A stretch of DNA of 64,000 nt from positions 69,848,984 through 69,912,983 of the forward strand of contig NC_088300.1 of assembly GCF_032854445.1 (NCBI RefSeq), given 5' to 3'. The DNA comes from Liolophura sinensis. Its lineage: Eukaryota > Mollusca > Polyplacophora > Chitonida > Chitonidae. The notes beneath the pieces were generated by a model that ran no database searches, was not told where the DNA came from, and saw nothing but the letters and a program-made list of their open reading frames with translations. The stretch's first letter is position 1. Each line of letters begins with the position of its first letter. This document shows, piece by piece, positions 1 through 34,800 of the stretch. The position numbers and the translations under genes are program-made.

Positions 1-208
1 GGAGTGAAGCTGAGAGCTGAGTAAAGAACATCACGACTAATCCTATATTGCTTAACTGGATTATCGGAAAGTGAATAGAGCTCATAGATTAACTCATATT
101 TCTGCAGACTGTCTCTTTCAAACAATCTGGAGATGACATGAATTTCTGTTGGCCGTTGAAATACAACTCCAGCTAGGTTTAACGACGGGGGAACTTTTCC
201 CCAGCGAG

Positions 209-217
209 ATATATATA
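209..217 (+). promoter_or_regulatory. TATA-like element of CDC25 copy 1
   Basis: The run ATATATATA lies about 70 bp before the ATG at 288, a plausible TATA position with a short 5' leader. The same sequence recurs at +3354, +6617 and +9971, so every copy has the core promoter. The transcription start is not visible. Confidence 0.6.
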
Positions 218-287
218 CCAGAATTTAGTCCACTCAACCTAAGTCCCAGTATTTACTGAAACCAACAGTTCAACAAACATATCTATC

Positions 288-1755
288 ATGGCATCTTTAC
301 TTGCTAAGAAACTTTTTGATGACGACTCCTTCAATTTCCGCAGCCCACTTAAGCAATGTGATGATGCAGAGGAAGACAATAGCTTTTCCCCAATGATGGA
401 TTATTTTTCAACCAAGGGAAGCTCGTCCTTTGTGGCAGAAGACGAAGATTCCAGAGATAGTGGGATAGGCCTCGACGACAGTTTTAGCAACGATGACTGT
501 CCGCTTTCCCTTCCTAGCAGACCTTTTGTACAGCTAAATAAGGTAACAATCACCTATTTTCTTCACCTCATTTCCCAGTTACTTTACTACCTTATTCATT
601 TTTAGTAGTCAGTTCCAGCATTTTCTGTAAAATCATTTTGGATAACAGTATTCATTGCATGATTTTCCAGTACACTGTAGCAATAAATCATAACATTTTT
701 TACGCCGCAGGTGTGCGAAGAAGTGAAAATCCACAGCCAAAACATTCGAAAGCGAAGCCGTTCTCAAAGCGACCAGGATGATTCACCTGTGCAGAAGAGA
801 AAGAGACCCGACGCCATTCCCGAGCCAAGCAAATGTCCACTCAGGCTGTCCAATCTCCATTCGGAACATGAAATTAAAACTGCCCTAGACAGAGGTAATT
901 ATCAAATCTCAGCTGAATTTTACTCATATATTTATAATAAACATTACAACCGCCAGTAAGCCTAAATGAAATCTGTCTAGTATATTTGTAAACGTATGCA
1001 CGTTCATTTCTCCTCGGCAGTGTCGGAAAATCCAGACCTGATCAGTGACGGCAGCGTGGCCTACTGTCTGCCAACTGTTCCAGGCAAGCATCAAGATCTC
1101 AAGTCCATCACGCCGGAAACTTTGGCGCGGCTTCAAAAGCACGAGTTTGATGACATAGTAGACGAATTCCTCATTGTGGACTGCAGATATCCCTATGAGT
1201 TTCAAGGCGGCCACATCAAAGGAGCTGTCAACTATTACACCAAGGACAGTATTGTGGAAAACCTTATTTCCAAACCAGTCATTACCAGGAGTAGTGCAAC
1301 GAAAAGAAGCATTCTAATATTTCACTGTGAATTTTCATCCCAAAGAGGTCCAAAAATGTCTCGATTTTTAAGGAGCCAAGACAGACAGATGAACAAGGAT
1401 CGATATCCGCAGCTGTGTTATCCTGAGATTTACTTACTTCACGGCGGATACAAAAACTTCTTTGAGAAAGAAAAGGTAGGCGCATAAGCATTTTGTTGAT
1501 ATAGGCTTTTGGTAACCAGCAAGACTATATGCAAAAGTAATCACCAGAAACTTTGAGTGCGTGTACTTGGTATTATGCACAGGCACAATTCAGTGATGTT
1601 GTTTATTTTTTTCTTTCTAGGAGCTCTGCACGCCACAGACCTATCTGCCGATGCACCATGAAGATTTCAAGAAGGACATGCGAACATTTCGTTGCCAGTC
1701 TAAGAGCTGGGCTGGGGAAAAGAAGAGTCGTTCTGCGTTGAGATTATTCCTTTAG
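288..1755 (+). CDS. CDC25: M-phase inducer phosphatase CDC25, copy 1
   Basis: Dual-specificity phosphatase that removes inhibitory phosphates from CDK1/2 to drive cell-cycle entry (family knowledge). Exons 288-542, 711-894, 1021-1475 and 1621-1755 have GT/AG borders and matching phases, giving 342 aa. The N-terminal regulatory half has SP sites (S19, S34, S110), an acidic DSG motif at 57-59 (EDSRDSGIGLDDS) like the beta-TrCP degron of vertebrate CDC25A, and a basic RKRSRSQS...QKRKR stretch around 98-117, a likely NLS. The C-terminal rhodanese-fold domain has VDCRYPYEFQGGHIKGA and the catalytic loop HCEFSSQR (His248, Cys249, Arg255, the HCX5R signature). The tail SWAGEKKSR matches the conserved CDC25 C-terminus. 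At 342 aa it is shorter than vertebrate CDC25s, mainly in the N-terminus. The intact frame and key residues suggest function. Confidence 0.97.
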
Positions 1756-1956
1756 GCGTGAAAGTCAGCCATTTCTTATGTTTAAAGGTGGATGTTGACC
1801 TCATTCAGTTTAAAAATACATCTGTTTTGTTTTTTACCTGGAATTTCTACTGATTTGTGTACATATGATCTTTTTGAAATCCTCTCATCTTTGTTTTCTT
1901 TCTTTACATATTATCCCAGTGCTGTCGTTTGTGTACGAATCAAATATATGTGCGCC

Positions 1957-1962
1957 AATAAA
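1957..1962 (+). terminator. Polyadenylation signal AATAAA of CDC25 copy 1
   Basis: AATAAA lies about 200 bp after the stop codon, following a T-rich 3' UTR. It is conserved in all four units (5311, 8574 and 11928 by offset), so each copy can make its own mRNA end. Confidence 0.6.
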
Positions 1963-3641
1963 TGATCCACGTTGAATATTATCTCAGTTTTCTTCCTAGT
2001 TTCTGCCATGATGTGGCGTGCCCTATGTGCATGATAACATGACTGTTACATCGTAAACATAAACCTTGAAAAGTTGCGCATGAAACGTAACATTACACAA
2101 AGGAAACATTCGAAACTGATATCTAGTGCTGTTGACTTAAACCCTTATTGTACAAACAGGACTGCCATGCCCGGAGCCCAACCCCAAGCTTACTTTAAGT
2201 GGCAGTTGTACATAGTGCTTGAAAGGTACGAGTAACGCTTGACACTCATAATGAAAATTATTGCTTGATGAAACAACATGAGATTCTCACGCAGTCGAGT
2301 ACCAATGATTATGCACAGCATGTGGTACAGTTTCCACACCATTTCGCCTCGCACAACAGGTAGCAGGTTCGCTTCCGTTTTGAACAAAATTTAGCGCTTG
2401 ATCTGTGTCCACATCTGAATTTAGAAGGATGGAGAGAAAATCCTGCGATTTAAAGTACACCGAGAATTTGTATATGCTGACGTTTCCGAGAACCTATCAA
2501 AAGCCATGTGTGGAGTAGTTCCCTTTCTCAAACGTTGGTCTCCCTTAATATGGAAGACGAGTTTAAGCAGAATGTTGACACTCAAGCTGAAATATTTGAA
2601 ACAAGTGTAAAATTCAAATGCATCCATGCATGTGATAAGGCAATTACGGATATGAACTGATCTCCTTTGTAAACGACATATTCCCAATATGCTGTATCCT
2701 GTGCCAACAATTTACTTCTTGTAGAAAAGCAACAATGTGCACGCGAGATATAATACAAACGTACTATGTGCACTGTCACCATACACGAAACCTAATGAAA
2801 AGTGTAAATAGGTCGCTAAGGTAAACACAACGTACACATATGTATTGTGGAAGAAGTGTACCATGCAAGTGGTGAAAATTATGTCTGACAAGGTTTCTTT
2901 CATCGAAAAATGGTGTGTGCAGCCAACATCTCTCCAACTCGCTTCTTGCTGACAAACTAAATTGTCTCCCACCGTTTTGGTGTATGTATATGTATATGGT
3001 AGACTTCCCACTGGAAAGAAGTGACAGTGACAAACTATGTTGAGTGAAATGCAAATTTCAACGCATTCTACTTAAACAAATGACGCGTGTAGCTGTACGA
3101 TTAGGGGAAAATAGACTTACCGAGGTAAAAAATATTTAATTTGTACACCGTGAACAATGTTATCTTTCTGACAGCGGCCTCTTGTACTGACAATGAGTGC
3201 CTTATACAAAGCCCTTTACATTTCCATGCCCATATACAGCCTAGTTCATTCTGCCGTCTTTAAAGAAGCTGACTATGATTCCTTCTCACCTCCGGCGGCC
3301 TTTTGTTTACGTGGTATCTTCCACACGACCTACAGATAACAACACCAGCGGCATGGAGTGAAGCTGAGAGCTGAGTAAAGAACATCACGACTAATCCTAT
3401 ATTGCTTAACTGGATTATCGGAAAGTGAATAGAGCTCATAGATTAACTCATATTTCTGCAGACTGTCTCTTTCAAACAATCTGGAGATGACATGAATTTC
3501 TGTTGGCCGTTGAAATACAACTCCAGCTAGGTTTAACGACGGGGGAACTTTTCCCCAGCGAGATATATATACCAGAATTTAGTCCACTCAACCTAAGTCC
3601 CAGTATTTACTGAAGCCAACAGTTCAACAAACATATCTATC

Positions 3642-5109
3642 ATGGCATCTTTACTTGCTAAGAAACTTTTTGATGACGACTCCTTCAATTTCCGCAGCCC
3701 ACTTAAGCAATATGATGATGCAGAGGAAGACAATAGCTTTTCCCCAATGATGGATTATTTTTCAACCAAGGGAAGCTCGTCCTTTGTGGCAGAAGACGAA
3801 GATTCCAGAGATAGTGGGATAGGCCTCGACGACAGTTTTAGCAACGATGACTGTCCGCTTTCCCTTCCTAGCAGACCTTTTGTACAGCTAAATAAGGTAA
3901 CAATCACCTATTTTCTTCACCTCATTTCCCAGTTACTTTACTACCTTATTCATTTTTAGTAGTCAGTTCCAGCATTTTCTGTAAAATCATTTTGGATAAC
4001 AGTATTCATTGCATGATTTTCCAGTACACTGTAGCAATAAATCATAACATTTTTTACGCCGCAGGTGTGCGAAGAAGTGAAAATCCACAGCCAAAACATT
4101 CGAAAGCGAAGCCGTTCTCAAAGCGACCAGGATGATTCACCTGTGCAGAAGAGAAAGAGACACGACGCCATTCCCGAGCCAAGCAAATGTCCACTCAGGC
4201 TGTCCAATCTCCATTCGGAACATGAAATTAAAACTGCCCTAGACAGAGGTAATTATCAAATCTCAGCTGAATTTTACTCATATATTTATAATAAACATTA
4301 CAACCGCCAGTAAGCCTAAATGAAATCTGTCTAGTATATTTGTAAACGTATGCACGTTCATTTCTCCTCGGCAGTGTCGGAAAATCCAGACCTGATCAGT
4401 GACGGCAGCGTGGCCTACTGTCTGCCAACTGTTCCAGGCAAGCATCAAGATCTCAAGTCCATCACGCCGGAAACTTTGGCGCGGCTTCAAAAGCACGAGT
4501 TTGATGACATAGTAGACGAATTCCTCATTGTGGACTGCAGATATCCCTATGAGTTTCAAGGCGGCCACATCAAAGGAGCTGTCAACTATTACACCAAGGA
4601 CAGTATTGTGGAAAACCTTATTTCCAAACCAGTCATTACCAGGAGTAGTGCAACGAAAAGAAGCATTCTAATATTTCACTGTGAATTTTCATCCCAAAGA
4701 GGTCCAAAAATGTCTCGATTTTTAAGGAGCCAAGACAGACAGATGAACAAGGATCGATATCCGCAGCTGTGTTATCCTGAGATTTACTTACTTCACGGCG
4801 GATACAAAAACTTCTTTGAGAAAGAAAAGGTAGGCGCATAAGCATTTTGTTGATATAGGCTTTTGGTAACCAGCAAGACTATATGCAAAAGTAATCACCA
4901 GAAACTTTGAGTGCGTGTACTTGGTATTATGCACAGGCACAATTCAGTGATGTTGTTTATTTTTTTCTTTCTAGGAGCTCTGCACGCCACAGACCTATCT
5001 GCCGATGCACCATGAAGATTTCAAGAAGGACATGCGAACATTTCGTTGCCAGTCTAAGAGCTGGGCTGGGGAAAAGAAGAGTCGTTCTGCGTTGAGATTA
5101 TTCCTTTAG
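3642..5109 (+). CDS. CDC25: M-phase inducer phosphatase CDC25, copy 2
   Basis: Second tandem copy with exons 3642-3896, 4065-4248, 4375-4829 and 4975-5109, the same splice sites and 342 aa. Relative to copy 1 I see C24Y and P118H, the latter at the end of the basic QKRKR stretch. The catalytic HCEFSSQR loop, the rhodanese motif, the DSG degron-like motif and the WAGEKK tail are unchanged. The downstream spacer is 91 bp shorter. No inactivating change is visible, so it should encode an active phosphatase like copy 1. Confidence 0.96.
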
Positions 5110-6904
5110 GCGTGAAAGTCAGCCATTTCTTATGTTTAAAGGTGGATGTTGACCTCATTCAGTTTAAAAATACATCTGTTTTGTTTTTTACCTGGAATTT
5201 CTACTGATTTGTGTACATATGATCTTTTTGAAATCCTCTCATCTTTGTTTTCTTTCTTTACATATTATCCCAGTGCTGTCGTTTGTGTACGAATCAAATA
5301 TATGTGCGCCAATAAATGATCCACGTTGAATATTATCTCAGTTTTCTTCCTAGTTTCTGCCATGATGTGGCGTGCCCTATGTGCAAGATAACATGACTGT
5401 TAAACCCTTATTGGACAAACAGGACTGCCATGCCCGGAGCCCAACCCCAAGCTTACTTTAAGTGGCAGTTGTACATAGTGCTTGAAAGGTACGAGTAACG
5501 CTTGACACTCATAATGAAAATTATTGCTTGATGAAACAACATGAGATTCTCACGCAGTCGAGTACCAATGATTATGCACAGTATGTGGTACAGTTTCCAC
5601 ACCATTTCGCCTCGCACAACAGGTAGCAGGTTCGCTTCCGTTTTGAACAAAATTTAGCGCTTGATCTGTGTCCACATCTGAATTTAGAAGGATGGAGAGA
5701 AAATCCTGCGATTTAAAGTACACCGAGAATTTGTATATGCTGACGTTTCCGAGAACCTATCAAAAGCCATGTGTGGAGTAGTTCCCTTTCTCAAACGTTG
5801 GTCTCCCTTAATATGGAAGACGAGTTTAAGCAGAATGTTGACACTCAAGCTGAAATATTTGAAACAAGTGTAAAATTCAAATGCATCCATGCATGTGGTA
5901 AGGCAATTACGGATATGAACTGATCTCCTTTGTAAACGACATATTCCCAATATGCTGTATCCTGTGCCAACAATTTACTTCTTGTAGAAAAGCAACAATG
6001 TGCACGCGAGATATAATACAAACGTACTATGTGCACTGTCACCATACACGAAATCTAATGAAAAGTGTAAATAGGTCGCTAAGGTAAACACAACGTACAC
6101 ATATGTATTGTGGAAGAAGTGTACCATGCAAGTGGTGAAAATTATGTCTGACAAGGTTTCTTTCATCGAAAAATGGTGTGTGCAGCCAACATCTCTCCAA
6201 CTCGCTTCTTGCTGACAAACTAAATTGTCTCCCACCGTTTTGGTGTATGTATATGTATATGGTAGACTTCCCACTGGAAAGAAGTGACAGTGACAAACTA
6301 TGTTGAGTAAAATGCAAATTTCAACGCATTCTACTTAAACAAATGACGCGTGTAGCTGTACGATTAGGGGAAAATAGACTTACCGAGGTAAAAAATATTT
6401 AATTTGTACACCGTGAACATTGTTATCTTTCTGACGGCGGCGTCTTGTACTGACAATGAGTGCCTTATACAAAGCCCTTTACATTTCCAGGCCCATATAC
6501 AGCCTAGTTCATTCTGCCGTCTTTAAAGAAGCTGACTATGATTCCTTCTCACCTCCGGCGGCCTTTTGTTTACGTGGTATCTTCCACACGACCTACAGAT
6601 AACAACACCAGCGGCATGGAGTGAAGCTGAGAGCTGAGTAAAGAACATCACGACTAATCCTATATTGCTTAACTGGATTATCGGAAAGTGAATAGAGCTC
6701 ATAGATTAACTCATATTTCTGCAGACTGTCTCTTTCAAACAATCTGGAGATGACATGAATTTCTGTTGGCCGTTGAAATACAACTCCAGCTAGGTTTAAC
6801 GACGGGGGAACTTTTCCCCAGCGAGATATATATACCAGAATTTAGTCCACTCAACCTAAGTCCCAGTATTTACTGAAACCAACAGTTCAACAAACATATC
6901 TATC

Positions 6905-8372
6905 ATGGCATCTTTACTTGCTAAGAAACTTTTTGATGACGACTCCTTCAATTTCCGCAGCCCACTTAAGCAATGTGATGATGCAGAGGAAGACAATAGC
7001 TTTTCCCCAATGATGGATTATTTTTCAACTAAGGGAAGCTCGTCCTTTCTGGCAGAAGACGAAGATTCCAGAGATAGTGGGATAGGCCTCGACGACAGTT
7101 TTAGCAACGATGACTGTCCGCTTTCCCTTCTTAGCAGACCTTTTGTACAGCTAAATAAGGTAACAATCACCTATTTTCTTCACCTCATTTCCCAGTTACT
7201 TTACTACCTTGTTCATTTATAGTAGTCAGTTTCAGCATTTTCTGTAAAATCATTTTGGATAACAGTATTCATTGCATGATTTTCCAGTACACTGTAGCAA
7301 TAAATCATAACATTTTTTACGCCGCAGGTGTGCGAAGAAGTGAAAATCCACAGCCAAAACAGTCGAAAGCGAAGCCGTTCTCAAAGCGACCAGGATGATT
7401 CACCTGTGCAGAAGAGAAAGAGACCCGACGCCATTCCCGAGCCAAGCAAATGTCCACTCAGGCTGTCCAATCTCCATTCGGAACATGAAATTAAAACTGC
7501 CCTAGACAGAGGTAATTATCAAATCTCAGCTGAATTTTACTCATATATTTATAATAAACATTACAACCGCCAGTAAGCCTAAATGAAATCTGTCTAGTAT
7601 ATTTGTAAACGTATGCACGTTCATTTCTCCTCGGCAGTGTCGGAAAATCCAGACCTGATCAGTGACGGCAGCGTGGCCTACTGTCTGCCAACTGTTCCAG
7701 GCAAGCATCAAGATCTCAAGTCCATCACGCCGGAAACTTTGGCGCGACTTCAAAAGCACGAGTTTGATGACATAGTAGACGAATTCCTCATTGTGGACTG
7801 CAGATATCCCTATGAGTTTCAAGGCGGCCACATCAAAGGAGCTGTCAACTATTACACCAAGGACAGTATTGTGGAAAACCTTATTTCCAAACCAGTCATT
7901 ACCAGGAGTAGTGCAACGAAAAGAAGCATTCTAATATTTTACTGTGAATTTTCATCCCAAAGAGGTCCAAAAATGTCTCGATTTTTAAGGAGCCAAGACA
8001 GACAGATGAACAAGGATCGATATCCGCAGCTGTGTTATCCTGAGATTTACTTACTTCACGGCGGATACAAAAACTTCTTTGAGAAAGAAAAGGTAGGCGC
8101 ATAAGCATTTTGTTGATATAGGCTTTTGGTAACCAGCAAGACTATATGCAAAAGTAATCACCAGAAACTTTGAGTGCGTGTACTTGGTATTATGCACAGG
8201 CACAATTCGGTGATGTTGTTTATTTTTTTCTTTCTAGGAGCTCTGCACGCCACAGACCTATCTGCCGATGCACCATGAAGATTTCAAGAAGGACATGCGA
8301 ACATTTCGTTGCCAGTCTAAGAGCTGGGCTGGGGAAAAGAAGAGTCGTTCTGCGTTGAGATTATTCCTTTAG
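6905..8372 (+). CDS. CDC25: CDC25 copy 3, catalytic-loop His replaced by Tyr
   Basis: Third copy, exons 6905-7159, 7328-7511, 7638-8092 and 8238-8372, open over 342 codons. Relative to copy 1: V49L, P76L, I97S and H248Y. H248 is the histidine immediately before the nucleophilic Cys in HCX5R; here codon CAC is TAC (7940-7942), giving YCEFSSQR. Cys249 and Arg255 remain. In protein tyrosine phosphatases this His tunes the Cys pKa, so activity may be reduced. This is inference; the protein could also be a substrate-binding competitor. All splice sites and the stop codon are intact, so it is not an obvious pseudogene. Confidence 0.95.
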
Positions 8373-10258
8373 GCGTGAAAGTCAGCCATTTCTTATGTTT
8401 AAAGGTGGATGTTGACCTCATTCAGTTTAAAAATACATCTGTTTTGTTTTTTACCTGGAATTTCTACTGATTTGTGTACATATGATCTTTTTGAAATCCT
8501 CTCATCTTTGTTTTCTTTCTTTACATATTATCCCAGTGCTGTCGTTTGTGTACGAATCAAATATATGTGCGCCAATAAATGATCCACGTTGAATATTATC
8601 TCAGTTTTCTTCCTAGTTTCTGCCATGATGTGGCGTGCCCTATGTGCAAGATAACATGACTGTTACATCGTAAACATAAACCTTGAAAAGTTGCGCATGA
8701 AACGTAACATTACACAAAGGAAACATTCGAAACTGATATCTAGTGCTGTTGACTTAAACCCTTATTGGACAAACAGGACTGCCATGCCCGGAGCCCAACC
8801 CCAAGCTTACTTTAAGTGGCAGTTGTACATAGTGCTTGAAAGGTACGAGTAACGCTTGACACTCATAATGAAAATTATTGCTTGATGAAACAACATGAGA
8901 TTCTCACGCAGTCGAGTACCAATGATTATGCACAGTATGTGGTACAGTTTCCACACCATTTCGCCTCGCACAACAGGTAGCAGGTTCGCTTCCGTTTTGA
9001 ACAAAATTTAGCGCTTGATCTGTGTCCACATCTGAATTTAGAAGGATGGAGAGAAAATCCTGCGATTTAAAGTACACCGAGAATTTGTATATGCTGACGT
9101 TTCCGAGAACCTATCAAAAGCCATGTGTGGAGTAGTTCCCTTTCTCAAACGTTGGTCTCCCTTAATATGGAAGACGAGTTTAAGCAGAATGTTGACACTC
9201 AAGCTGAAATATTTGAAACAAGTGTAAAATTCAAATGCATCCATGCATGTGGTAAGGCAATTACGGATATGAACTGATCTCCTTTGTAAACGACATATTC
9301 CCAATATGCTGTATCCTGTGCCAACAATTTACTTCTTGTAGAAAAGCAACAATGTGCACGCGAGATATAATACAAACGTACTATGTGCACTGTCACCATA
9401 CACGAAACCTAATGAAAAGTGTAAATAGGTCGCTAAGGTAAACACAACGTACACATATGTATTGTGGAAGAAGTGTACCATGCAAGTGGTGAAAATTATG
9501 TCTGACAAGGTTTCTTTCATCGAAAAATGGTGTGTGCAGCCAACATCTCTCCAACTCGCTTCTTGCTGACAAACTAAATTGTCTCCCACCGTTTTGGTGT
9601 ATGTATATGTATATGGTAGACTTCCCACTGGAAAGAAGTGACAGTGACAAACTATGTTGAGTGAAATGCAAATTTCAACGCATTCTACTTAAACAAATGA
9701 CGCGTGTAGCTGTACGATTAGGGGAAAATAGACTTACCGAGGTAAAAAATATTTAATTTGTACACCGTGAACAATGTTATCTTTCTGACAGCGGCCTCTT
9801 GTACTGACAATGAGTGCCTTATACAAAGCCCTTTACATTTCCAGGCCCATATACAGCCTAGTTCATTCTGCCGTCTTTAAAGAAGCTGACTATGATTCCT
9901 TCTCACCTCCGGCGGCCTTTTGTTTACGTGGTATCTTCCACACGACCTACAGATAACAACACCAGCGGCATGGAGTGAAGCTGAGAGCTGAGTAAAGAAC
10001 ATCACGACTAATCCTATATTGCTTAACTGGATTATCGGAAAGTGAATAGAGCTCATAGATTAACTCATATTTCTGCAGACTGTCTCTTTCAAACAATCTG
10101 GAGATGACATGAATTTCTGTTGGCCGTTGAAATACAACTCCAGCTAGGTTTAACGACGGGGGAACTTTTCCCCAGCGAGATATATATACCAGAATTTAGT
10201 CCACTCAACCTAAGTCCCAGTATTTACTGAAGCCAACAGTTCAACAAACATATCTATC

Positions 10259-11726
10259 ATGGCATCTTTACTTGCTAAGAAACTTTTTGATGACGACTCC
10301 TTCAATTTCCGCAGCCCACTTAAGCAATGTGATGATGCAGAGGAAGACAATAGCTTTTCCCCAATGATGGATTATTTTTCAACCAAGGGAAGCTCGTCCT
10401 TTGTGGCAGAAGACGAAGATTCCAGAGATAGTGGGATAGGCCTCGACGACAGTTTTAGCAACGATGACTGTCCGCTTTCCGTTCTTAGCAGACCTTTTGT
10501 ACAGCTAAATAAGGTAACAATCACCTATTTTCTTCACCTCATTTCCCAGTTACTTTACTACCTTATTCATTTTTAGTAGTCAGTTCCAGCATTTTCTGTA
10601 AAATCATTTTGGATAACAGTATTCATTGCATGATTTTCCAGTACACTGTAGCAATAAATCATAACATTTTTTACGCCGCAGGTGTGCGAAGAAGTGAAAA
10701 TCCACAGCCAAAACAGTCGAAAACGAAGCCGTTCTCAAAGCGACCAGGATGATTCACCTGTGCAGAAGAGAAAGAGACCCGACGCCATTCCCGAGCCAAG
10801 CAAATGTCCACTCAGGCTGTCCAATCTCCATTCGGAACATGAAATTAAAACTGCCCTGGACAGAGGTAATTATCAAATCTCAGCTGAATTTTACTCATAT
10901 ATTTGTAATAAACATTACAACCGCCAGTAAGCCTAAATGAAATCTGTCTAGTATATTTGTAAACGTATGCACGTTCATTTCTCCTCGGCAGTGTCGGAAA
11001 ATCCAGACCTGATCAGTGACGGCAGCGTGGCCTACTGTCTGCCAACTGTTCCAGGCAAGCATCAAGATCTCAAGTCCATCACGCCGGAAACTTTGGCGCG
11101 GCTTCAAAAGCACGAGTTTGATGACATAGTAGACGAATTCCTCATTGTGGACTGCAGATATCCCTATGAGTTTCAAGGCGGCCACATCAAAGGAGCTGTC
11201 AACTATTACACCAAGGACAGTATTGTGGAAAACCTTATTTCCAAACCAGTCATTACCAGGAGTAGTGCAACGAAAAGAAGCATTCTAATATTTCACTGTG
11301 AATTTTCATCCCAAAGAGGTCCAAAAATGTCTCGATTTTTAAGGAGCCAAGACAGACAGATGAACAAGGATCGATATCCGCAGCTGTGTTATCCTGAGAT
11401 TTACTTACTTCACGGCGGATACAAAAACTTCTTTGAGAAAGAAAAGGTAGGCGCATAAGCATTTTGTTGATATAGGCTTTTGGTAACCAGCAAGACTATA
11501 TGCAAAAGTAATCACCAGAAACTTTGAGTCCGTGTACTTGGTATTATGCTCAGGCACAATTCAGTGATGTTGTTTATTTTTTTCTTTCTAGGAGCTCTGC
11601 ACGCCACAGACCTATCTGCCGATGCACCATGAAGATTTCAAGAAGGACATGCGAACATTTCGTTGCCAGTCTAAGAGCTGGGCTGGGGAAAAGAAGAGTC
11701 GTTCAGCGTTGAGATTATTCCTTTAG
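10259..11726 (+). CDS. CDC25: M-phase inducer phosphatase CDC25, copy 4
   Basis: Last copy, exons 10259-10513, 10682-10865, 10992-11446 and 11592-11726, 342 aa. Relative to copy 1: L75V, P76L and I97S, the last two shared with copy 3. The HCEFSSQR catalytic loop and the rest of the rhodanese domain are unchanged. Silent or non-coding differences are more frequent here than between copies 1 and 3, as expected for the array edge. The sequence after its poly(A) region follows the unit to about 12650 and is then replaced by diverged DNA. Confidence 0.96.
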
Positions 11727-12650
11727 GCGTGAAAGTCAGCCATTTCTTATGTTTAAAGGTGGATGTTGACCTCATTCAGTTTAAAAATACATCTGTTTTG
11801 TTTTTTACCTGGAATTTCTACTGATTCGTGTACATATGATCTGTTTGAAATCCTCTCATCTTTGTTTTCTTTCTTTACATATTATCCCAGTGCTGTCGTT
11901 TGTGTACGAATCAAATATATGTGCGCCAATAAATGATCCACGTTGAATATTATCTCAGTTTTCTTCCTAGTTTCTGCCATGATGTGGCGTGCGCTATTTG
12001 CAAGATAACATGACTGTTACATCGTAAACATAAACCTTGAAAAGTTGCGCATGAAACGTAACATTACACAAAGGAAACATTCGAAACTGATATCTAGTGC
12101 TGTTGACTTAAACCCTTATTGGACAAACTGCACTGCCATGCCCGGAGCCCAACCCCAAGCTTACTTTAAGTGGCAGTTGTACATAGTGCTTGAAAGGTAC
12201 GAGTAACGCTTGACACTCATAATGAAAATTATTGCTTGATGAAACAACATGAGATTCTCACGCAGTCGAGTACCAATGATTATGCACAGTATGTGGTACA
12301 GTTTCCACACCATTTCGCCTCGCACAATAGGTAGCAGGTTCGCTTCCGTTTTGAACAAAATTTAGCGCTTGATCTGTGTCCACATCTGAATTTAGAAGGA
12401 TGGAGAGAAAATCCTGCGATTTAAAGTACACCGAGAATTTGTATATGCTGACGTTTCCGAGAATCTATCAAAAGCCATGTGTGGAGTAGTTCCCTTTCTC
12501 AAACGTTGGTCTCCCTTAATATGGAAGACGAGTTTAAGCAGAATGTAGACACTCAAGTGAAATATTTGAAACAAGTGTAAAATTCAAATGCATCCATGCA
12601 TGTGGTAAGGCAATTACGGATATGAACTGATCTCCTTTGTAAACGACATA

Positions 12651-13231
12651 TTACAGATATGAAGTGATCCTCGTTGTGAACGGCATATTATCAATATGCT
12701 GTATCCTGTGTGCAGGGTTTACTTGAGCAAGGGGTCAAGAGACATTATACACGGGGCATGTGATGCAATATAGTCGAATTCGGTAAATTGTGAATACAGG
12801 GCAAATGACGATTTTGCTATGCCCACACATGAATGTATTTGCACAAGACCCGCGTAGCACATACATGAATGTATTTGTTTAAGACTCAAGCAAACCGAAA
12901 AGAATTGTCCTAAACATCCGTGAAAAGATAGAAAACACTTTTCATCGGAAAATAATTTTTAGCAAGGGGATGGCTGCTCGGAGTTATAGAAATATAAAAC
13001 AAATAATAATGTAAAACGTTATGTGACAGGTATATCTCTCGCGCAAGCTACATGTATGTTTCTCTGCATGTGTTGAGGGTCGCCTGAGCCATCAGGGTTT
13101 TTAAGTATTTCCGTGCTTTCCATATATAAATCCCCCCCCCCCCACAAAAAACATTAATATTTAGGACGAAATGTTAGGCTGAAATATTAAAACAACAGCG
13201 AAATTTGAACGGAGCCAAAGATGTAGCAAAA

Positions 13232-13311
<80 letters not shown>

Positions 13312-14070
13312 TGAAGCAATTCGTGTGGCGAAAGCACCATGTGGCCCGTTACGAGATATAATATAACTGTATTTTGTGGATTATGACACACAAGGCAAGC
13401 AACAATTTTACTGTGCACATGCATGAAAGTATTACTACAACACACATGCAGTCGAAAAATAAGTTTCCTGCAAGCCGTGAAAAGAGGCAGATGCTGACAC
13501 AAGTACACAAAACACTATGTCGTTTTCATTGCAGAAGAGTTTTTGATAAAGAGTTGAGAGTTTCGAAAGTATAAAGCACGTAATAAATGAACTATAGCTG
13601 AAAGGCAGACGAGTCCCTTGAGCAATTTACCTGTAAGTGCAGCCTGTACTTTCTCTATATGTACCAAGCTTCTAGGGTGCCGTCAGTGTTTTAAGCGATT
13701 CTGTGGTTTCCATAGATTATCTACACGCTACCAATCAAAAGTGTTAAGTGATCCCTAAACGAAACAAAATATTCCCAAAATATTGGTGTAAGTGGTCTAA
13801 ATTAAGCCTAAGAATGTTTTGATAGAGAAAAGGTGGCGTGTGCAGCCTATGTCTTTCAAAGCCGTTTGTTCGTGACAAAGTCAGCCGTCTCTTAATATTT
13901 TCGGTCTATGCACGTGTTTGTAACGGAGACTTGTACCTCTATGAGAATGGCAATCTAAATAGAAATGTTCTGTTTAAGATAAGACATTGGTCACTTAATT
14001 GGGAGGAAATAGTATAATATTTTGTAATAAAACATTAATAACTAAATTATTAAAGTGAACATTTTTAATT
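12651..14070. other. Non-coding flank with diverged CDC25-spacer relics
   Basis: No gene is visible. Segments resemble the spacer of the CDC25 units at low identity. Around 13830-13960, GTGTGCAGCC followed by CTTTCAAAGCC..GTTCGTGACAAA parallels the unit's GTGTGCAGCC..CTCCAACTCGC..GCTGACAAA in the same order. Near 12640-12720 a piece ending ATATGCTGTATCCTGTG is duplicated. This looks like an older, decayed part of the array. A C-run lies at about 13132-13143 and a TA microsatellite follows. Confidence 0.55.
13230..13312. repeat. TA dinucleotide microsatellite
   Basis: Uninterrupted AT/TA run of about 80 bp next to an A-rich stretch. The isoleucine/tyrosine-rich reading frame across it is an artefact of the repeat. 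Confidence 0.95.
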
Positions 14071-15265: not shown

Positions 15266-15393
15266 ACAAGACTCCTGGTGCTGAGACAGCCATCCATGAA
15301 CTAGAGGCAGAGCCGTGTCGTGGATCACCTCAGGGTGGTCGTCTTACGTTCCTTCCTCCGGGTTAAATTCCAAAAAGTGATCCAGACATTATA

Positions 15394-15614
15394 TGACCCA
15401 GGAGCCCCTCACCAATGCGCTCCCTGTGAGTTCAAGTCCAGCTCATGCTGGCTTTCTCTCCAGCCTTAAATGGGAAGGTCTTCCAGCAACCTGCTGATGG
15501 TCGTGGATTTCGCCCAGGCTGTGTCCGGTTTCCTCCCACCATAATGCTGGCCGCCGTCGTACAAGTGAAATATTCTTGAGTACGGCGTAAAACACCAATC
15601 AAATAAACAAATAA
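15394..15614 (+). mobile_element. tRNA-derived SINE, head partly truncated
   Basis: Plus-orientation copy with a B-box-like GTGAGTTCAAGTCC near 15426, the conserved core GGTTTCCTCCCACCATAATG and the tail GTAAAACACCAATCAAATAAA. It starts inside the tRNA-like head at GACCCAGGAGCC. The 14-bp duplication ATCCAGACATTATA flanks it at 15380-15393 and 15615-15628, showing target-primed insertion. Confidence 0.92.
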
Positions 15615-15703
15615 ATCCAGACATTATAAGTATACGACGTTCCCAGCGAACAGCCAAACACAAACACAGCAACAAATCTGTGTCCCAAAGATACCTTGCC
15701 CAC

Positions 15704-17160: not shown

Positions 17161-17492
17161 CTGCAGTATATGCGCCTGGCCACATCCTTGTATGTGTACA
17201 TGTACATGGGCACACGGATATAGATATACCTACATCGTATACCTATAATCTAGTGGAAATACCATTTGCTAGTTTATAATATAGTTTACATTAGTATATA
17301 TATATACATATTGTGAGCCATAGTTGTCTATACTTTAGGTGTAGACTGTATTACTCTATTAGAGTAGTAAATCCTGTATTGCAAGGTGACTCAGCACCAT
17401 TAACAAGAGCATCTTTCTGTCTCTCCTTCTTAGAGTCGCTCCTAGGGATCCCTTATTCTAAATAACAGTCTTTTGTAATAACCTATTGTCTG

Positions 17493-18755
17493 GTGCACTT
17501 GCACCTAATCACCGGCCTAGCCGGGTTTCAGGTCGCGCCATGGGCGACTCCAGCCAAGCCATGGAGGTGGTGGCTTGTCAGATCGTCAGGGAAAAGAACG
17601 CGCGATTTTTCCGCCGAACGTAAAGACGAAAAGAAGTCTAGGCCAACTATAAGATCTTCAGGTACGAATACCAAACTTAACGTCGTGATTACCTCCCTTG
17701 GTGGCCTCCCGGTTTCGGATTGGAACCCAGTTAAATTTGGCCAAAGTCTACATCAGGCCATTGGTAAAGTAAAATTTGTGAAGAAAACAAACAACAGAGA
17801 TATGTTAGTTACCTGTGCTTCCCAGGACCAAGTAAAAAAATCATTGGCCCTCTCTACCCTTATGGGGAGAGACATTACTTGCAAGCTTCAGTCTAGTCAG
17901 AATATTTCTCGTGGGGTCATTTATGGGTTGGGTGAAGAAATTATTGAAGAAGAAGTTCTTGAAGCTCTGAAAAAATATAAAGTTGCCAAAGTGAAAAGAT
18001 TATTAAAGGAGAGGGATAATATTCCTACTAAATGTTTTCTATTATATTTTGATGCTGATAAATTACCAGAAGAAGTCACCTTAGGATCTGAATTATTTAC
18101 AGTGAAAACATATATACCTTCAGTAATTCGTTGTTTCAAATGTCAATCCTTCAGCCATGTTGCAGCAGAATGCAGAGGGAAGCAAAAATGTTCCAGGTGT
18201 GGAGGGCATCACGAATACGACTAGCGCTATAGTTATAACAGTGCAGCATATCTGCGCTGCCAAGCACGCAAAACCGTTAGTAAGGCCCAGTATGTTCGCG
18301 TAACCCAGAAAATCTCTTTTGCGCAGGCACTAAAGCAAGTAAAGGAAGATGCGAAGAAAGCTTCCCCAGAATCAGACACAGAACGGGCCCTGCTTGAAGG
18401 TCCCCCATATGAGACACCCACTCCAGACCCCTACACTATTGTACAAACCCTATCCCAGCCGTTATCTCAGCCCAGAACTCAGCCAACACCTATCCCCGTT
18501 AAGTCCGTAAAACCTACAGTTAAAAGTGTATCTACCCAAACCTATGTTTCTGCAGGTACCCGGTCGGAAGACCCGCCCGCCCCAATAGTGTCCAAGATAA
18601 TTGTCATTTTTACCCCAATTTTACTTAGGATCTGCGCTACTGAGGACCCAGTTAAACTGGTTGAATTTGTTAATGAGGTCACCAAAGAGCAACTGGGATC
18701 GGAACAGCTGGACGTCAATCGATTCATGATTAAAATTCCCAACCCCCAAGACTGA
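17493..18755 (+). pseudogene. LINE ORF1 (gag-like, zinc knuckle), one internal stop
   Basis: Nucleic-acid-binding ORF1 protein that would coat the retrotransposon RNA. The first open part ends at 18224 with CFKCQSFSHVAAEC (CX2CX4-5HX4C zinc knuckle) and the start of a second, CSRCGGHH. The TAG at 18222-18224 is the only block. The same frame continues to TGA at 18753-18755 with YLRCQARKTV and a Pro/Ser-rich region, as in I/Jockey gag proteins. The true start may be the ATG at 17540, which has good context but lies in a shifted frame, implying a small indel early in the ORF. One stop plus a possible early frameshift make it a recent pseudogene. Confidence 0.8.
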
Positions 18756-18825
18756 CGATGAAGAAAGTTCATAAGATCGATTATTCCCCTGTATAACATA
18801 TATTTCTTTCTGCCCCTATTCAAAA

Positions 18826-21800
18826 TGCCTTTAAATATTTTACATTCCAACATAAATAGTATAGTGTCCCATGGACAGGAGTTCAAGTTTTATTTATCAA
18901 ATGTTACACCTGCTCCTGATGTTGTTTGTATACAGGAAACTTTTTTAAAGGCACATCTGAAGTTTACCTATCTGGGCTACTATATATCTAGGGAGAATCG
19001 TTAGGGGGAAAGGGTGGGTTGGCTATGTTTTTAAGGGAAGGATTATGCTACTCTGAAATTAAATTCCCTGAGTTCATATCTGTTGAATGCCAGGGGTTTA
19101 ATATATCTGATCGTAATGGCCGTTCTATTTCAGTAGTTAATCTATACAACCCGTGTAAAAAGCTCTTTATTTCACATTTTGAAAGGCTTGTTGCGTCCTG
19201 TCAGAAGTCTTATATTATATGCGGGGATTTTAATGTTCATAATGTCATATGGGTGGGGTAAGTACAGATCTAAATGGTAGGGTTGTAAATTCCTTTATCC
19301 AAGATAATGATTCAGTAATTTTAAATGATGGCACGGGTACCCGTCTAGACCCTCGTACCTCAAAGTTATCTGTTTTGGATTTAATCATTGTACCCCTGAC
19401 CTTGCCTTACAGTTCGACTGGTCTGTGGATTTGTCCTCTCCCTGTGGGAGCGATCATTACCGTGTTCATGCTAGATGTAGTTTTACCCCTCATGTCAATG
19501 ATACTGCCCGGCGTCCTAGGTGGAAAGTTGAGAAAGCAGACTGGTATCTCTACAAGTATGAATGTGGGAAATCATTTGACAATATTGACATTATTAATGA
19601 TGGTATTGATATATTCCATGACAATGCAATTAAGGTTATATCTGTCGCAGCTAACAACTCTTTAAATAGATCGTCGGGAAATATACCCTCTAAAATGCCA
19701 GTCCCCTGGTGGACAGATGCCTGCTCTGCCGCTATTAAGGAGCGTAAACGTTTAAAAAATCGTGCTCGTCGCTTTCGAATGTATGATGATATTATTTTGT
19801 TTAAGCAGGCGAAAGCCGTCGCCCAACGTGTTATTAAAGCAGCCCAGAAGGATTACTGGCGACAATTTTGTTCTAACTTAAATTCCCGTACTTCTATTAA
19901 ACAGGTCTGGGCACAGGTCAACGCTATAAATGGGAAGGGTAAAGCTGGGAGTATACCCACTATTGTATCAGATGGTGTTAACCATGCTACTAACACAGAC
20001 AAGGCCAATATATTAGCCTACAATTTCTCATTTGTTTCTAGTTCAAAGAATTATAATCCTGACTTTATTCCCCGTAAAACTGAAATGGAGAAGATAAATC
20101 CTTTTGATAATATCCAGTTTGATGAAATACCTATAAATGATAATTTCTCTCTATCTGAATTAAAACAGTCTATTTCAACAGCATCAGATTCATCTCCTGG
20201 CGAGGATGGAATTTCGTATTCTATGATCCATAACCTACCAGATAAATGCCTAAATGTACTTTTGTTACTTTACAATACTATATGGAATAATATGAGATTG
20301 CCTGTTACCTGGAAGAGGGCTGTTGTCGTACCCATCCCTAAGCCTGGAAAAGATCATTCTGTACCTACTTCATATCGGCCTATTGCCCTAACGTCTATCT
20401 TGTGTAAGGTTATGGAAAGAATGATTAATTCTAGGCTTAATTGGTATTTAAATAAAAATAATTTATTTTCCCATGTACAGAGTGGATTCAGACATGGCCG
20501 TTCGACGGCCGACCATGTAATTACCCTGGAAACAGCAGTAAAGAATGCACTAATGAATAAGGACTACCTATTTGCAGTTTTTCTGGATATCGAAAAAGCC
20601 TATGACATAGTTTGGCGTACTGGGGTTTTGTTCAAAATGGAAAGTATGGGTATTGGTGGGAAAATGTTGGAGTGGAAAAAAGATTTTCTAACGGGGCGGT
20701 TTATTAAAGTACGGGTGGGTAGGGATTACTCCCGATCGGTTGCTGTGGAGAACAGTGTGCCCCAGGGGAGTGTTTTGTCACCCACGTTATTCAATACTAT
20801 GATAAATGATTTACCTGAGGCAATATCACCTACACTTAACTCCACTCTGTTTGCAGATGACAAATCTATGTGGTACCAATCAAAGAGCCTTAAACTCTGC
20901 ACGAAACGTATTCAAGAGGGACTAAATGATATAATGAAATGGGGTTTATTGTGGGGTTTTAAATTCTCATCTGCCTAGACAGAAGCAGTTATATTTACTC
21001 GTAAAGCCGTTAAAGATGTTGTCATAACCTTAAATAATGTTGATGTCAAAATATCTACTTCCTTCAAATATCTAGGGGTAATTTTTGACGAGCGGTTAAT
21101 CTGGTCAAAACATATTGAGTATATTATCACGAAATGTCAGAAGGTATTGCATTTAATGCGTTGTGTTTCAGGGAAATCCTGGGGAGCTGATAGAAGATGT
21201 CTGTTATTATTATATAAATCATTAATCCGTTCTCATCTTGATTACCGTTGTGAGGCATACGATTCTGCCTGTAACAAGTTGAAGTATAAACTCGATTCTG
21301 TTCAGTGCGCAGCCCTGGGGGTGTGTACAGGAGGCATAAAGTCCACACCACTGACTGTTTTCCAAGTTTTTTGTAATGAGTGGCCTTTGTACATTTGTAG
21401 GCGTCTGCGTACTCTTAAATTTACTCTCAAACCACAACCTGATATGAACAATTCTGCCTCAGTTCTTTTGAAACCTTCGTATTGTGATGTTCTATATCAT
21501 GATGCCAATACTTACATGTTGCCCTTCAGCTTGAGATCTAAAGAAGTACTCCATCATTTTTTCCCTGATGGTATCAATGTACAACCTTCCTTTACACCGG
21601 ATTTCCCCCCATGGCAATTACATAACCCACCTATATCTTTAGAATTAATAATAGAATTTAAAAATCTGATACCTCTTCCTTATCTCTACTGATCGTTAAG
21701 TAACTGGTCGGAATATATGCAAGTGTATACAGATGCGTCTAAATGCCCGGAAAATAATCATGTTGCCATTTCTTTCTGTGTTCCAGAAATACATTATTCT

Positions 21801-22577
21801 AAATCAGCCAGAATGTCCAATTTCGCATCTGTATTTACAGCTGAATTTACAGCTATTATTTGCTGTCTCCACTTTCTTATAGATCTTAAACCTACCCGTT
21901 CTGTTATTTTCACAGATTCTTTGTCTTCATTACAGGCTATTATAAATTACTCCTGGACAAAGTCCTCGTCCCTTATCTATGAAATACTGCATTTATGCAC
22001 TTTACTGTATTATGAAGGTCTCTCTGTTTCATTTGAATGGGTGCCAGCTCATATCGGTGCTCCCGGTAATGAACTGGCTGACTCCTTGGCCAAGCAAGTT
22101 CTTTGTAGTTCTGAAATCTCTCACCATGTCTGTTTATCTATTGATGAAGCATTAAGCTCTATTATGCCTGATTTCCGTGATTTATTTCAGAGAGACTGGA
22201 CCGACTCTGATAAGGGCAGGTTCTTTTTCATGCTTAATCCGTTAATTCCCCCTAGTTACAGTCTTGATTTGAATCGTCGTCATGATGAAATTCTTGTATT
22301 TAAATTATTATCTGGGCATTTCCCTACAAATTCTTACTTACATCGTATTCATTCACATGATTCGGGTCTCTGTGAGGAGTGCCTTGTAGAGGACTCCATA
22401 CCTCACCTTTTACTCCATTGTTCCCGCCATACTGATGCTCGACTCGTTTTATATCATGATTTGCGTCGTCTTGGCATTCGTAACTTTAATGAACACACCA
22501 TTCTCAATCCTTTGGAAAACCACAATAAAGTTTTTCATGCAGTTGCCAACTTTCTTACCCAATGTCACAGATTCTAA
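18826..22577 (+). pseudogene. LINE ORF2: endonuclease, reverse transcriptase, RNase H (broken)
   Basis: Polyprotein for target-primed reverse transcription. The endonuclease region has LHSNINS, VVCIQET, ICGDFNVHN and, after frameshifts, GSDHYRVH. It is broken by TAG at 19002-19004 and by frameshifts near 19005-19012, 19250-19262 and 19390. The reverse transcriptase is open from about 19425 to 20975, with SYRPIALTS, GFRHGRST, FLDIEKAYD, PQGSVLSPTLFN and the catalytic FADD. TAG at 20976-20978 and TGA at 21690-21692 interrupt the frame, which then continues unchanged. The RNase H domain shows YTDAS, FTAEFTA, FTDSLSS and WVPAHIG..NELAD. The end has CEECLVEDS..HLLLHC, a zinc-binding-like motif. 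Catalytic residues of RT and RNase H survive, so decay is recent. Confidence 0.85.
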
Positions 22578-31277: not shown

Positions 31278-31549
31278 GCTGTACTGTAGGATGCTTTACC
31301 ACTAGCAATCTGGCATCCTAAATCTGTACTGTAGGATGCTTTACCACTAGCAATCTGGCATCCTAAATCTGTACTGTAGGATGCTTTACCACTAGCAATC
31401 TGGCATCCTAAATCTGTACTGTAGGATGCTTTACCACTAGCAATCTGGCATCCTAAATCTGTACTGTAGGATGCTTTACCACTAGCAATCTGGCATCCTA
31501 AATCTGTACTGTAGGATGCTTTACCACTAGCAATCTGGCATCCTAAATC
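31278..31549. repeat. 45-bp minisatellite, six copies
   Basis: Six essentially identical 45-bp units, each containing CTGTACTGTAGGATGCTTTA and CTAGCAATCTGGCATCCTAA. Because 45 is a multiple of three, the minus strand stays open as a 15-residue repeat beginning DLGCQIASG. There is no start context or homology, so I do not call it coding. It lies about 290 bp past the PTCD3 stop and could be in its 3' UTR or flank. Confidence 0.95.
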
Positions 31550-31838: not shown

Positions 31839-34800
31839 TTATACTTTATCTGAACCATTACGACTTAAAAGTGACCTTTGTAGCTCTGTCAGTTGAAGCT
31901 TTTCCAAGGTTTTCTCCACAGCCTCTTTAAGATCAGGGAGTCCTTGGTCTGACAGCTCTCTGATACATTCCTGAATGACAAACACAGAACATGGCACAAT
32001 AATGGTATCACAAACCCGACTAAAGTAGAAAGTTGCTCGACGATCTAAAATATGACAATCAACTGAAGTGTTTAAGTACTGGGAACAATACACACTTCTG
32101 GATTATTTAGGTATCTTAGTTACTTTGTAACAAAATGAAGAGAACAAAATCTAACCATGGCTTTTGTTGCATCTCCTCTAGCTATACTGGCATCCAGTAG
32201 GCAGGTCAAAGCAGGGCCACTGCAAGACAAGAAATAGAATGCACAAATATTATCTATGCAGCAGCACCCATATTTCATATTCTCCTGACACTATTAACAC
32301 TCCATTAGCAGGCTTGTCACATGATTTTACCATTCCACTAGCTTTCCGTCTGTACAGACAACAGAGGAATAAGGACAAAAAGTTGTGGGTGTGCAGCATG
32401 ATTTACAAAAATCAGCACTGGGTCAAGTTTTCTAGAGTGTACCAGGTGGCTAAAAGATGGGTGCCTAAGTGCAAGCCATGCATCCTTCATTTCAAACCCT
32501 GAAACATATGGGCACTCCAACAGTAATCTTCCTCAATCAATTAAGGTAAATTTTATTTACTTTCTCTATTGGCATACAGAGATACTAGCATGGTCTAAAC
32601 ATGTACCTCAAGACTCCTGCAATCTTTTGGCTCTCCTTTTTCATGATTTCCATTTTCTCCCTGTAACATAAAGAAATAGGTTCAGTGATGGGAAAACTAA
32701 TAACAGCAATGGAGGATAACAATCAGCTTTGTACACTCAGATGTGACAAGACAAATGGCTTAGATTACCCTTTTTTAAAAATTAGCTTTCTACACTTAAT
32801 GAAAAGATTTTTTTTCCTTCACTTCATGGAGAGATTAGCTCCCTTCACTTCATGAAGAGATTAACTTTCTTCATTTCATGAACAGATTAGCTCTCTTCAC
32901 TTCAATAACAGATTAGCTTTCTTCCTGAAAAGATTAGCTTTCTTCACTTCATGAAGAGAGAAGCTTTTTCAGTTCGATAGTAGATTTAATAGCCTTTTTC
33001 ACTTCATGAAACGTCAGGCTTTTTTTAACATCTAAAACAGTTGAAATCTTAGCACCAATCCAAACAGATACGTTTGAGAATGTAGCAAGCAAAAAAAAGC
33101 ATGAGGGTGAGACTGCAGATTACTATTGATGGAAAAAAATATTGATGGAAACACAATATAATCCAATGAAATACACATATTCAAGTTCATATCAACTGCA
33201 ATTAACAAATCTATGAAGTATGTTACTGCTGCCAGACAAACCACATACCAGGCAAGGTCAAAATCGTCTGCTCTCACAGCTACTGTGATTAGGTCACTCA
33301 TCATCGGGCCAGTAAGTCTAAAACAAAGGTCATGGACAAGGGTATAGAGTCTTCATTTACTTGAATCTTTATTTGTCATTACTTAATTTTATCTGAGAAT
33401 AGCCAGCTTTATCTGTGATGAAAACCAGGCAGAACAAGAGAGAGAGAAAACTGTCTTGCTAAGGGGCAGAGGGGGTGAGGGGATTTCAATAAGTATCCAA
33501 TGCCTGGCACTTCAAGCTCACTACATGACAGGCTGGAATATATACAATGAAACATATTCAAAACAGGTTTATAAGTCCTCAAACCAAACAAGAATTTTGT
33601 CTGGACCAGAATATGTTCTTACCACTCATAAATGTTATGTTTGTCTCAATATGTTCTTTGCCTGGGTTACATTTTTATGAAAACTTCCCAACTTACATGT
33701 TTTACCCTTAAATGTGTGTCAATATGTGTCAAATATATGGTATTTCATATTTTTTAAAAGAATACAGCTGCCACACTTAAATACTTGGGCCACAACATTA
33801 CTGTCATTTTGGATTCCTCAGTAGTAGCTCAATACAGTACACATGCATTTTCAAAACTGAACTGTAAAAGTGTCTTTGAACAATACCCTTGTGAGAGTCG
33901 CAATGACTTACACTATACTTATCCTTGTGAGACGCACAATGACTTACACTATACTTATCCTTGTGTGAGTCACAATGACTTACACTATACTTATCTTGTG
34001 AGAGTCACAATGACTTACACTATACTTATCCTTGTGAGGCTTGCAATGACTTACACTATACTTATCCTTGTGAAAGTCACAATGACTTACACTATACTTA
34101 CCCTTGTGAGAGTCGCAATGACTTACACTATACTTACCCTTGTGAGAGTCGCAATGACTTACACTATACTTATCCTTGTGAGGGTTGCAATGACTTACAC
34201 TATACTTATCCTTGTGAGAGTCACAATGACTTACACTATACTTATCCTTGAGAGTCACAATGACTTACACTATACTTATCCTTGTGAGAGTCGCAATGAC
34301 TTACACTATACTTATCCTTGTGAGAGTCACAATGACTTACACTATACTTATCCTTGTGAGACGCGCATTGACTTACACTATACTTATTCTTGTGAGACGC
34401 GCAATGACTTACACTATACTTATCCTTGTGAGAGTCACAATGACTTACACTATACTTATCCTTTTGTGAGTCACAATGACTTACACTATACTTACGCTTG
34501 TGAGAATTGCAATGACTTACACTATACATATCCAGAACACTAGAGCTATGAAGCCATGAAATGAACATTCAATTATCCTAACACTTTCACTTTCAATAAA
34601 TTTGTCATATTAAAATTTATGGTAACAAAGATGAAAATATCACTGATTTCCAAAGCAATCTAGTGAAGCTTAGAATTGTTATACAAGAATATCAAGTTTC
34701 ATGTCCACAAATTTAGCAGATGATGTATAAATTGTAAATTGAAGACAAATGCCAGGGGGTTCAAGAATTGGAGGTAATAATTTCTGATCTACCTGAGTAC

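Follow-up and report, generated by a model that had tools for sequence, protein, structure and literature searches.

Tandem arrays of CDC25 phosphatase genes in the chiton Liolophura sinensis

We analyzed a 64,000-nt stretch of the chiton Liolophura sinensis genome (NCBI RefSeq assembly GCF_032854445.1, NC_088300.1, here scaffold C6; C6:69848984-69912983), referred to below as the window. CDC25 is the enzyme that switches cells into division, and an initial annotation had described four near-identical, intact CDC25 genes lying head to tail at the left end of the window. All four were confirmed. They occupy plus-strand units A20 (1-3354), A21 (3355-6617), A22 (6618-9971) and A23 (9972-12671), with coding exons at 288-542, 711-894, 1021-1475 and 1621-1755 (A20); 3642-3896, 4065-4248, 4375-4829 and 4975-5109 (A21); 6905-7159, 7328-7511, 7638-8092 and 8238-8372 (A22); and 10259-10513, 10682-10865, 10992-11446 and 11592-11726 (A23). 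In each unit, the four exons encode a complete 342-aa CDC25, the introns are bounded by GT...AG, a TATA-like box lies ∼80 bases 5′ of the ATG (at ∼210 in A20), and AATAAA is found 3′ of the stop codon (at 1957 in A20). Aligned pieces of the four units are 97.9–99.8% identical; identity near 99% over kilobases rules out a chance repeat. Relative to A20, A21 carries C24Y and P118H, and 91 bp of its spacer are deleted. A23 is truncated in the spacer near 12650-12671 and is the most divergent unit of the array wherever sequence can be compared. We also noted a word, TGTANATA, presumably a Pumilio-type site, 3′ of the stop codon in all four genes (at 1858, 5212, 8475 and 11829); as the first 12.7 kb contain 11 instances of the word, this may be chance.

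The annotation had suggested that the array might continue left of the window, and it does. The 609-Mb assembly (632 contigs) was searched, and the left extent was traced in the 70 kb left of the window. The window contains the right end, with the final four units, of an array of 23 head-to-tail units (array A) that spans ∼74 kb on one scaffold (C6:69787687-69861654); the units continuing leftwards rule out an array confined to the window. At the left end is A01, which lacks its 5′ part and starts at C6:69787687. An intact 342-aa frame is present in 17 of the 23 units. All six broken ones lie outside the window, among the 19 units to its left: A01 is truncated, A06 has a 5-bp deletion, A14 has a large internal deletion, A13 and A15 are both broken by a common 29-bp insertion, and A17 has a stop at codon 206.

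Elsewhere in the window, a non-LTR retrotransposon (17466-22577, plus strand) retains fragments for endonuclease, reverse transcriptase and RNase H, scattered over several frames. A dispersed SINE-like repeat occurs at about eleven sites (15393-15615, 28699, 38677, 39890-40153, 50960-51224, 54533-54764, 56509-56774, 58347-58509, 58957, 60667-60920 and 63289); a copy is also listed at L009:8448-8634, and the left edge of array A lies ∼70 bases beyond the end of one copy. Exons encoding a BTB domain and pentapeptide repeats (57156-57464 and 59838-60137, plus strand) belong to what we take, by its look, to be a KCTD9-type gene. Minisatellites are found at 31279-31549 (six perfect copies of a 45-bp unit), 33887-34533 (18 copies of a 36-bp unit) and 47871-49393 (a 72–79-bp unit over 1.5 kb). 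Scanning the window for Rfam families and tRNAs yielded no hits.

A second array, array B, lies ∼29 Mb from array A on the same scaffold and is older than array A. Its 12 B-type units or remnants, mostly ∼3.6 kb each, are minus-strand and span C6:40.49-40.535 Mb. In 8 of the 12, both the reading frame and the splice sites are intact; B06, which has a changed Cys (see below), is among these 8. B01 is rearranged, B05 has lost its exon 4 acceptor, B09 carries a frameshift, and a 200-N gap interrupts B12. Array B (stretches L018-L021) also contains eleven exon-4-like pieces, each ∼1 kb 3′ of a B gene and 84–90% like exon 4 of array A; in the one unit read fully, the usual frame is left near the end of the piece.

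When the assembly was searched at the protein level for the catalytic exon, at least 60 exon-level matches were returned, with 60 of 60 candidates scored, and those listed all lie on scaffolds C6 and C9. Outside the arrays, these two scaffolds hold at least seven intron-richer CDC25-like loci (C6:59.179-59.203 Mb, 58.283 and 50.091 Mb; C9:11.012 and 11.063 Mb), three of them within 24 kb. These loci are a separate expansion in their own right, and the baseline assumed in the annotation, one to three dispersed CDC25 genes in most animals, does not fit this genome. In all seven, the catalytic domain is split by two introns at common positions with GT...AG ends, whereas it is unsplit in A and B. 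A protein tree placed A and B as sisters (98/100), with no settled placement among the seven other loci; the tree pieces of loci g3 to g7 were cut at BLAST match ends, which may have introduced errors of one or two residues at the intron boundaries. The two catalytic-domain introns would have been lost in the common ancestor of A and B. A processed retrogene is ruled out, since three introns are retained, these two being the missing ones.

The catalytic domain of the array A protein matched human CDC25B with E = 6.5e-65, and CDC25A, B and C chains all matched with E = 6e-55 or better. Pfam Rhodanese (PF00581) matched at 3.4e-12, in line with the rhodanese-like catalytic domain of the CDC25 family. 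The array copies resemble animal CDC25 (human CDC25A/B/C) in this domain, in the HCX5R signature (most copies), in the docking arginines and in the WAGE tail region. Arg488 and Arg492 of CDC25B, which we take to be the CDK-docking arginines, both have aligned counterparts, at 264 and 268, and the N-terminal part has a DSG motif that we assume to resemble that of CDC25A. Compared with the human proteins, the chiton copies are 342 aa (A) or 344–346 aa (B) in length and are amplified in arrays. Their loop consensus, in both arrays, is HCEFSSQR (B08 has Lys at the Gln position), where the seven other chiton loci have HCEFS[S/T]ER; this loop and the two missing introns set the array copies apart from their CDC25 kin. 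Gln in place of Glu looks like a derived change, judging from these loci, and a literature search for a Glu-to-Gln change in the loop found none.

Not every copy retains the signature. In the window, HCX5R is present in three of four copies; A22 has YCX5R, with HCEFSSQR changed to YCEFSSQR by a CAC-to-TAC codon change at 7940. The description of the four genes as intact thus holds for their complete 342-aa frames and fails for the signature His of A22. The adjacent units B05 and B06 read HSEFSSQR, i.e. HSX5R, owing to a Cys-to-Ser change (TGT to TCT). Replacement of the catalytic Cys by Ser gives a standard dead or substrate-trapping form, and the solved CDC25A chain 8roz_C reads HSEFSSER. The altered copies A22, B05 and B06 might be in decay, or might hamper the active copies.

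To assess homogenization, we compared units within each array. Mean divergence was 0.16% among the ten central units A03–A12 (broken A06 included), 0.40% among the 17 intact A units, 0.81% among the four window units and 5.0% among B02–B11. Heterozygosity in Liolophura japonica is given as 1.24% in the accessible text of its genome paper (PMC11068029); at 0.16% divergence, the central A units therefore resemble one another more closely than an average pair of alleles does. No difference separates A04 from A08, despite the three units between them. Central units A03–A12 differ by 0–9 bases, whereas A22 and A23 differ by 14–34 bases from other units (A01 set aside), and A01, at the left edge, shows 14–38 differences over a shared 2.2–2.8 kb. 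Hence, the edges of array A are more divergent than its center, as expected under concerted evolution. Divergence within arrays (0.40% for A and 5.0% for B) is also lower than that between them (20–23% in exons 1–2), the exception being exon 3, at only 1.5% between array consensuses. Low divergence, identical distant units and divergent edges are the expected marks of unequal exchange and conversion. Together with the internal deletions and insertions, they lend good support to the earlier suggestion of recent unequal exchange. By these distances, array A is very young or strongly homogenized.

Near-identical units could also appear if haplotigs or read errors had inflated a few copies into many. 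Adjacent units A05 and A06 do differ by the 5-bp deletion only, yet 3 or more bases distinguish the members of every other adjacent pair compared (A14 left out), and divergence is higher at the edges. According to the accessible text of the assembly paper (PMC11068029), the published assembly was built from 14x HiFi data with a mean read of 8.3 kb, which is shorter than three units, but its authors purged haplotypic duplicates. Array B has the 200-N gap, whereas the stretches of array A that were read contain no N. We think it unlikely that array A is a simple assembly artefact, and consider inflation of a few copies into many very improbable indeed; the exact copy number, which comes from one assembly, may still be wrong.

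We next compared consensus sequences of the two arrays (A without A01, A06, A13, A14, A15 and A21; B without B01 and B12). Identity was 80.0% in exon 1, 77.2% in exon 2, 98.5% in exon 3 and 89.6% in exon 4. For introns 1, 2 and 3, the corresponding values were 74.8, 51.6 and 89.0%; the 287 bases upstream were 79.6% identical, and the 3′ flank and spacer 59–72%. Values of dS were 0.53, 0.48, 0.033 and 0.19 for exons 1 to 4, respectively, with 3 synonymous differences per 93.5 sites in exon 3 versus 32.2 per 87.5 in exons 1 and 2 (Fisher p = 6e-9). Likewise, the A–B branch measured ∼0.31 changes per site for exons 1–2 and 0.014 for exon 3. That exon 3 is 98.5% alike, versus 77–80% for exons 1–2, points to exchange of the catalytic exon between arrays. 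Protein-level selection alone is rejected as the source of this likeness, because synonymous sites are alike too. RNA or codon constraint on exon 3 might in principle be the cause, but the adjoining intron 3 is 89% alike, and two other CDC25-like loci show only 67–83% DNA identity in exon 3 stretches. In trees of exons 1–2 and of exon 3 (10 of 23 A units and 10 of 12 B units), A and B formed separate groups in both cases, the exon 3 bootstrap not having settled. Because the arrays remain separate in both trees, the exchange of exon 3 probably preceded the spread of today's A copies, rather than being a continuous process.

The array edges carry reciprocal relics. A B-type spacer relic beside array A (13324-13820 of the window, plus strand) is 82.6% identical to unit B03, and the 3′ edge of array B has A-type pieces (89–94%), implying that the two loci once had sequence types in common. 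At the right junction of array A lies a diverged short spacer repeat (12650-12725, plus strand), 85% identical over 12650-12710 to positions 2643-2703 of the A unit and 74% identical over its full length to a B unit. The sharp difference between exon 3 and intron 2 offers a clean setting in which to study ectopic conversion between arrays so far apart.

The array had been taken to suggest selection for dosage, and we looked for selection at two levels. Between A and B, dN/dS was 0.34–0.51 per exon, and nonsynonymous change was depleted in exons 1 and 2 (p = 2e-4), whereas in exon 4, taken by itself, the shortfall was not significant (p = 0.19). For the nine B copies B02–B08, B10 and B11, splice-broken B05 included, the point estimate of dN/dS was ∼0.38. 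The A–B comparison shows purifying selection since the split, a sequence-level sign that the gene lineage encoded a working protein. It means that the lineage was kept functional; selection for many copies is not thereby demonstrated. Within array A, the 17 intact copies have 16 nonsynonymous and 7 synonymous variants (pN/pS 0.58, p = 0.29), compatible with neutrality. Coding positions are as variable as noncoding ones (25/1029, 2.4%, versus 35/1559, 2.2%) over 19 rows, these being units on the columns of A20, including A13 and A15 without their 29-bp insertion. Dosage selection is therefore not demonstrated.

The equal variability of coding and noncoding positions is what one would expect if copy number simply drifted by unequal exchange and the extra dose brought no benefit, with one or a few copies, or the intron-richer paralogs, doing the work. 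The 6 broken units among 23, and the three copies with changed signature residues, fit such neutral amplification as well. It is less easily reconciled with the purifying selection seen between A and B, with a dN/dS of less than 1 for the B copies and with reading frames still open in 17 of 23 units, and array A may be too young for internal selection to show. We regard neutral amplification as possible but doubtful.

A Cyclin_N control gave no array (of 27 candidates, 15 matched at exon level, spread over five scaffolds), so a general amplification of mitotic genes is rejected as far as cyclins show. Cyclins are also the sole candidate partner looked at for intragenomic conflict, in which the copies would have been amplified through a bias in gamete production or by countering a rival element, in the manner of Slx/Sly, and their lack of amplification counts against it. 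Two arrays on the same scaffold, fast turnover and changed signature residues in some copies would suit such a conflict, and the accessible part of PMC6690552 describes drive-associated gene co-amplification in Drosophila and mouse. On balance, we find it distinctly unlikely.

Among the matches listed, no description of such a CDC25 array was found in the open-licence PMC literature. In Drosophila Sdic, expression reportedly correlates with copy number. A positive correlation with copy number is given for Sdic in the accessible part of PMC10589255, and 18 Y-linked copies for Mst77Y in that of PMC4478544; these families, too, are young and consist of many coding genes with closely similar sequences, but the genes are different. 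The available text of PMC2826372 reports a lineage-specific Cdc25 duplication in the pea aphid, with Cdk1, Polo, Wee1 and Aurora also duplicated. The aphid is thus alike in having Cdc25 duplicated in one animal lineage, but differs in that other mitotic genes were duplicated too and that this text describes no long near-identical array. No mention of cdc25 was found in the accessible parts of the L. japonica genome paper (PMC11068029) or of one other chiton genome paper.

The amplification is real and unusual, was built by ordinary mechanisms, and is wider than first reported. We think it reasonably probable, from the sequence comparisons above, that in the chiton a functional CDC25 phosphatase gene has recently expanded into a tandem array whose units are still being homogenized. 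Inside each array, likeness among units would be maintained by unequal crossing-over and gene conversion, and ectopic conversion would have passed the catalytic exon between them. Open-frame copies may be transcribed from their own predicted TATA-type promoters and may jointly supply CDC25, which would remove the inhibitory phosphate from CDK1; the CDK residues on which this phosphatase family acts are Thr14/Tyr15. The putative site of this supply is most plausibly the gonad, egg or early cleavage. Individual copies would be expendable, with a few broken or missing a signature residue. In a bolder proposal, concerted evolution of the two separate arrays of this rate-limiting mitotic switch would act mostly on the catalytic exon, the regulatory exons diverging, and the His-to-Tyr and Cys-to-Ser members would serve as substrate-trapping brakes alongside active copies, making up a tunable, fast-evolving CDC25 dose system, possibly of the germline; this strikes us as rather unlikely. 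CDC25 is dose-sensitive and normally tightly limited. Two CDC25 arrays, one of them extremely young, would allow a test of whether an animal is able to withstand an abundant mitotic activator or put it to use, and of whether divisions in the germline or during cleavage are tuned by copy number.
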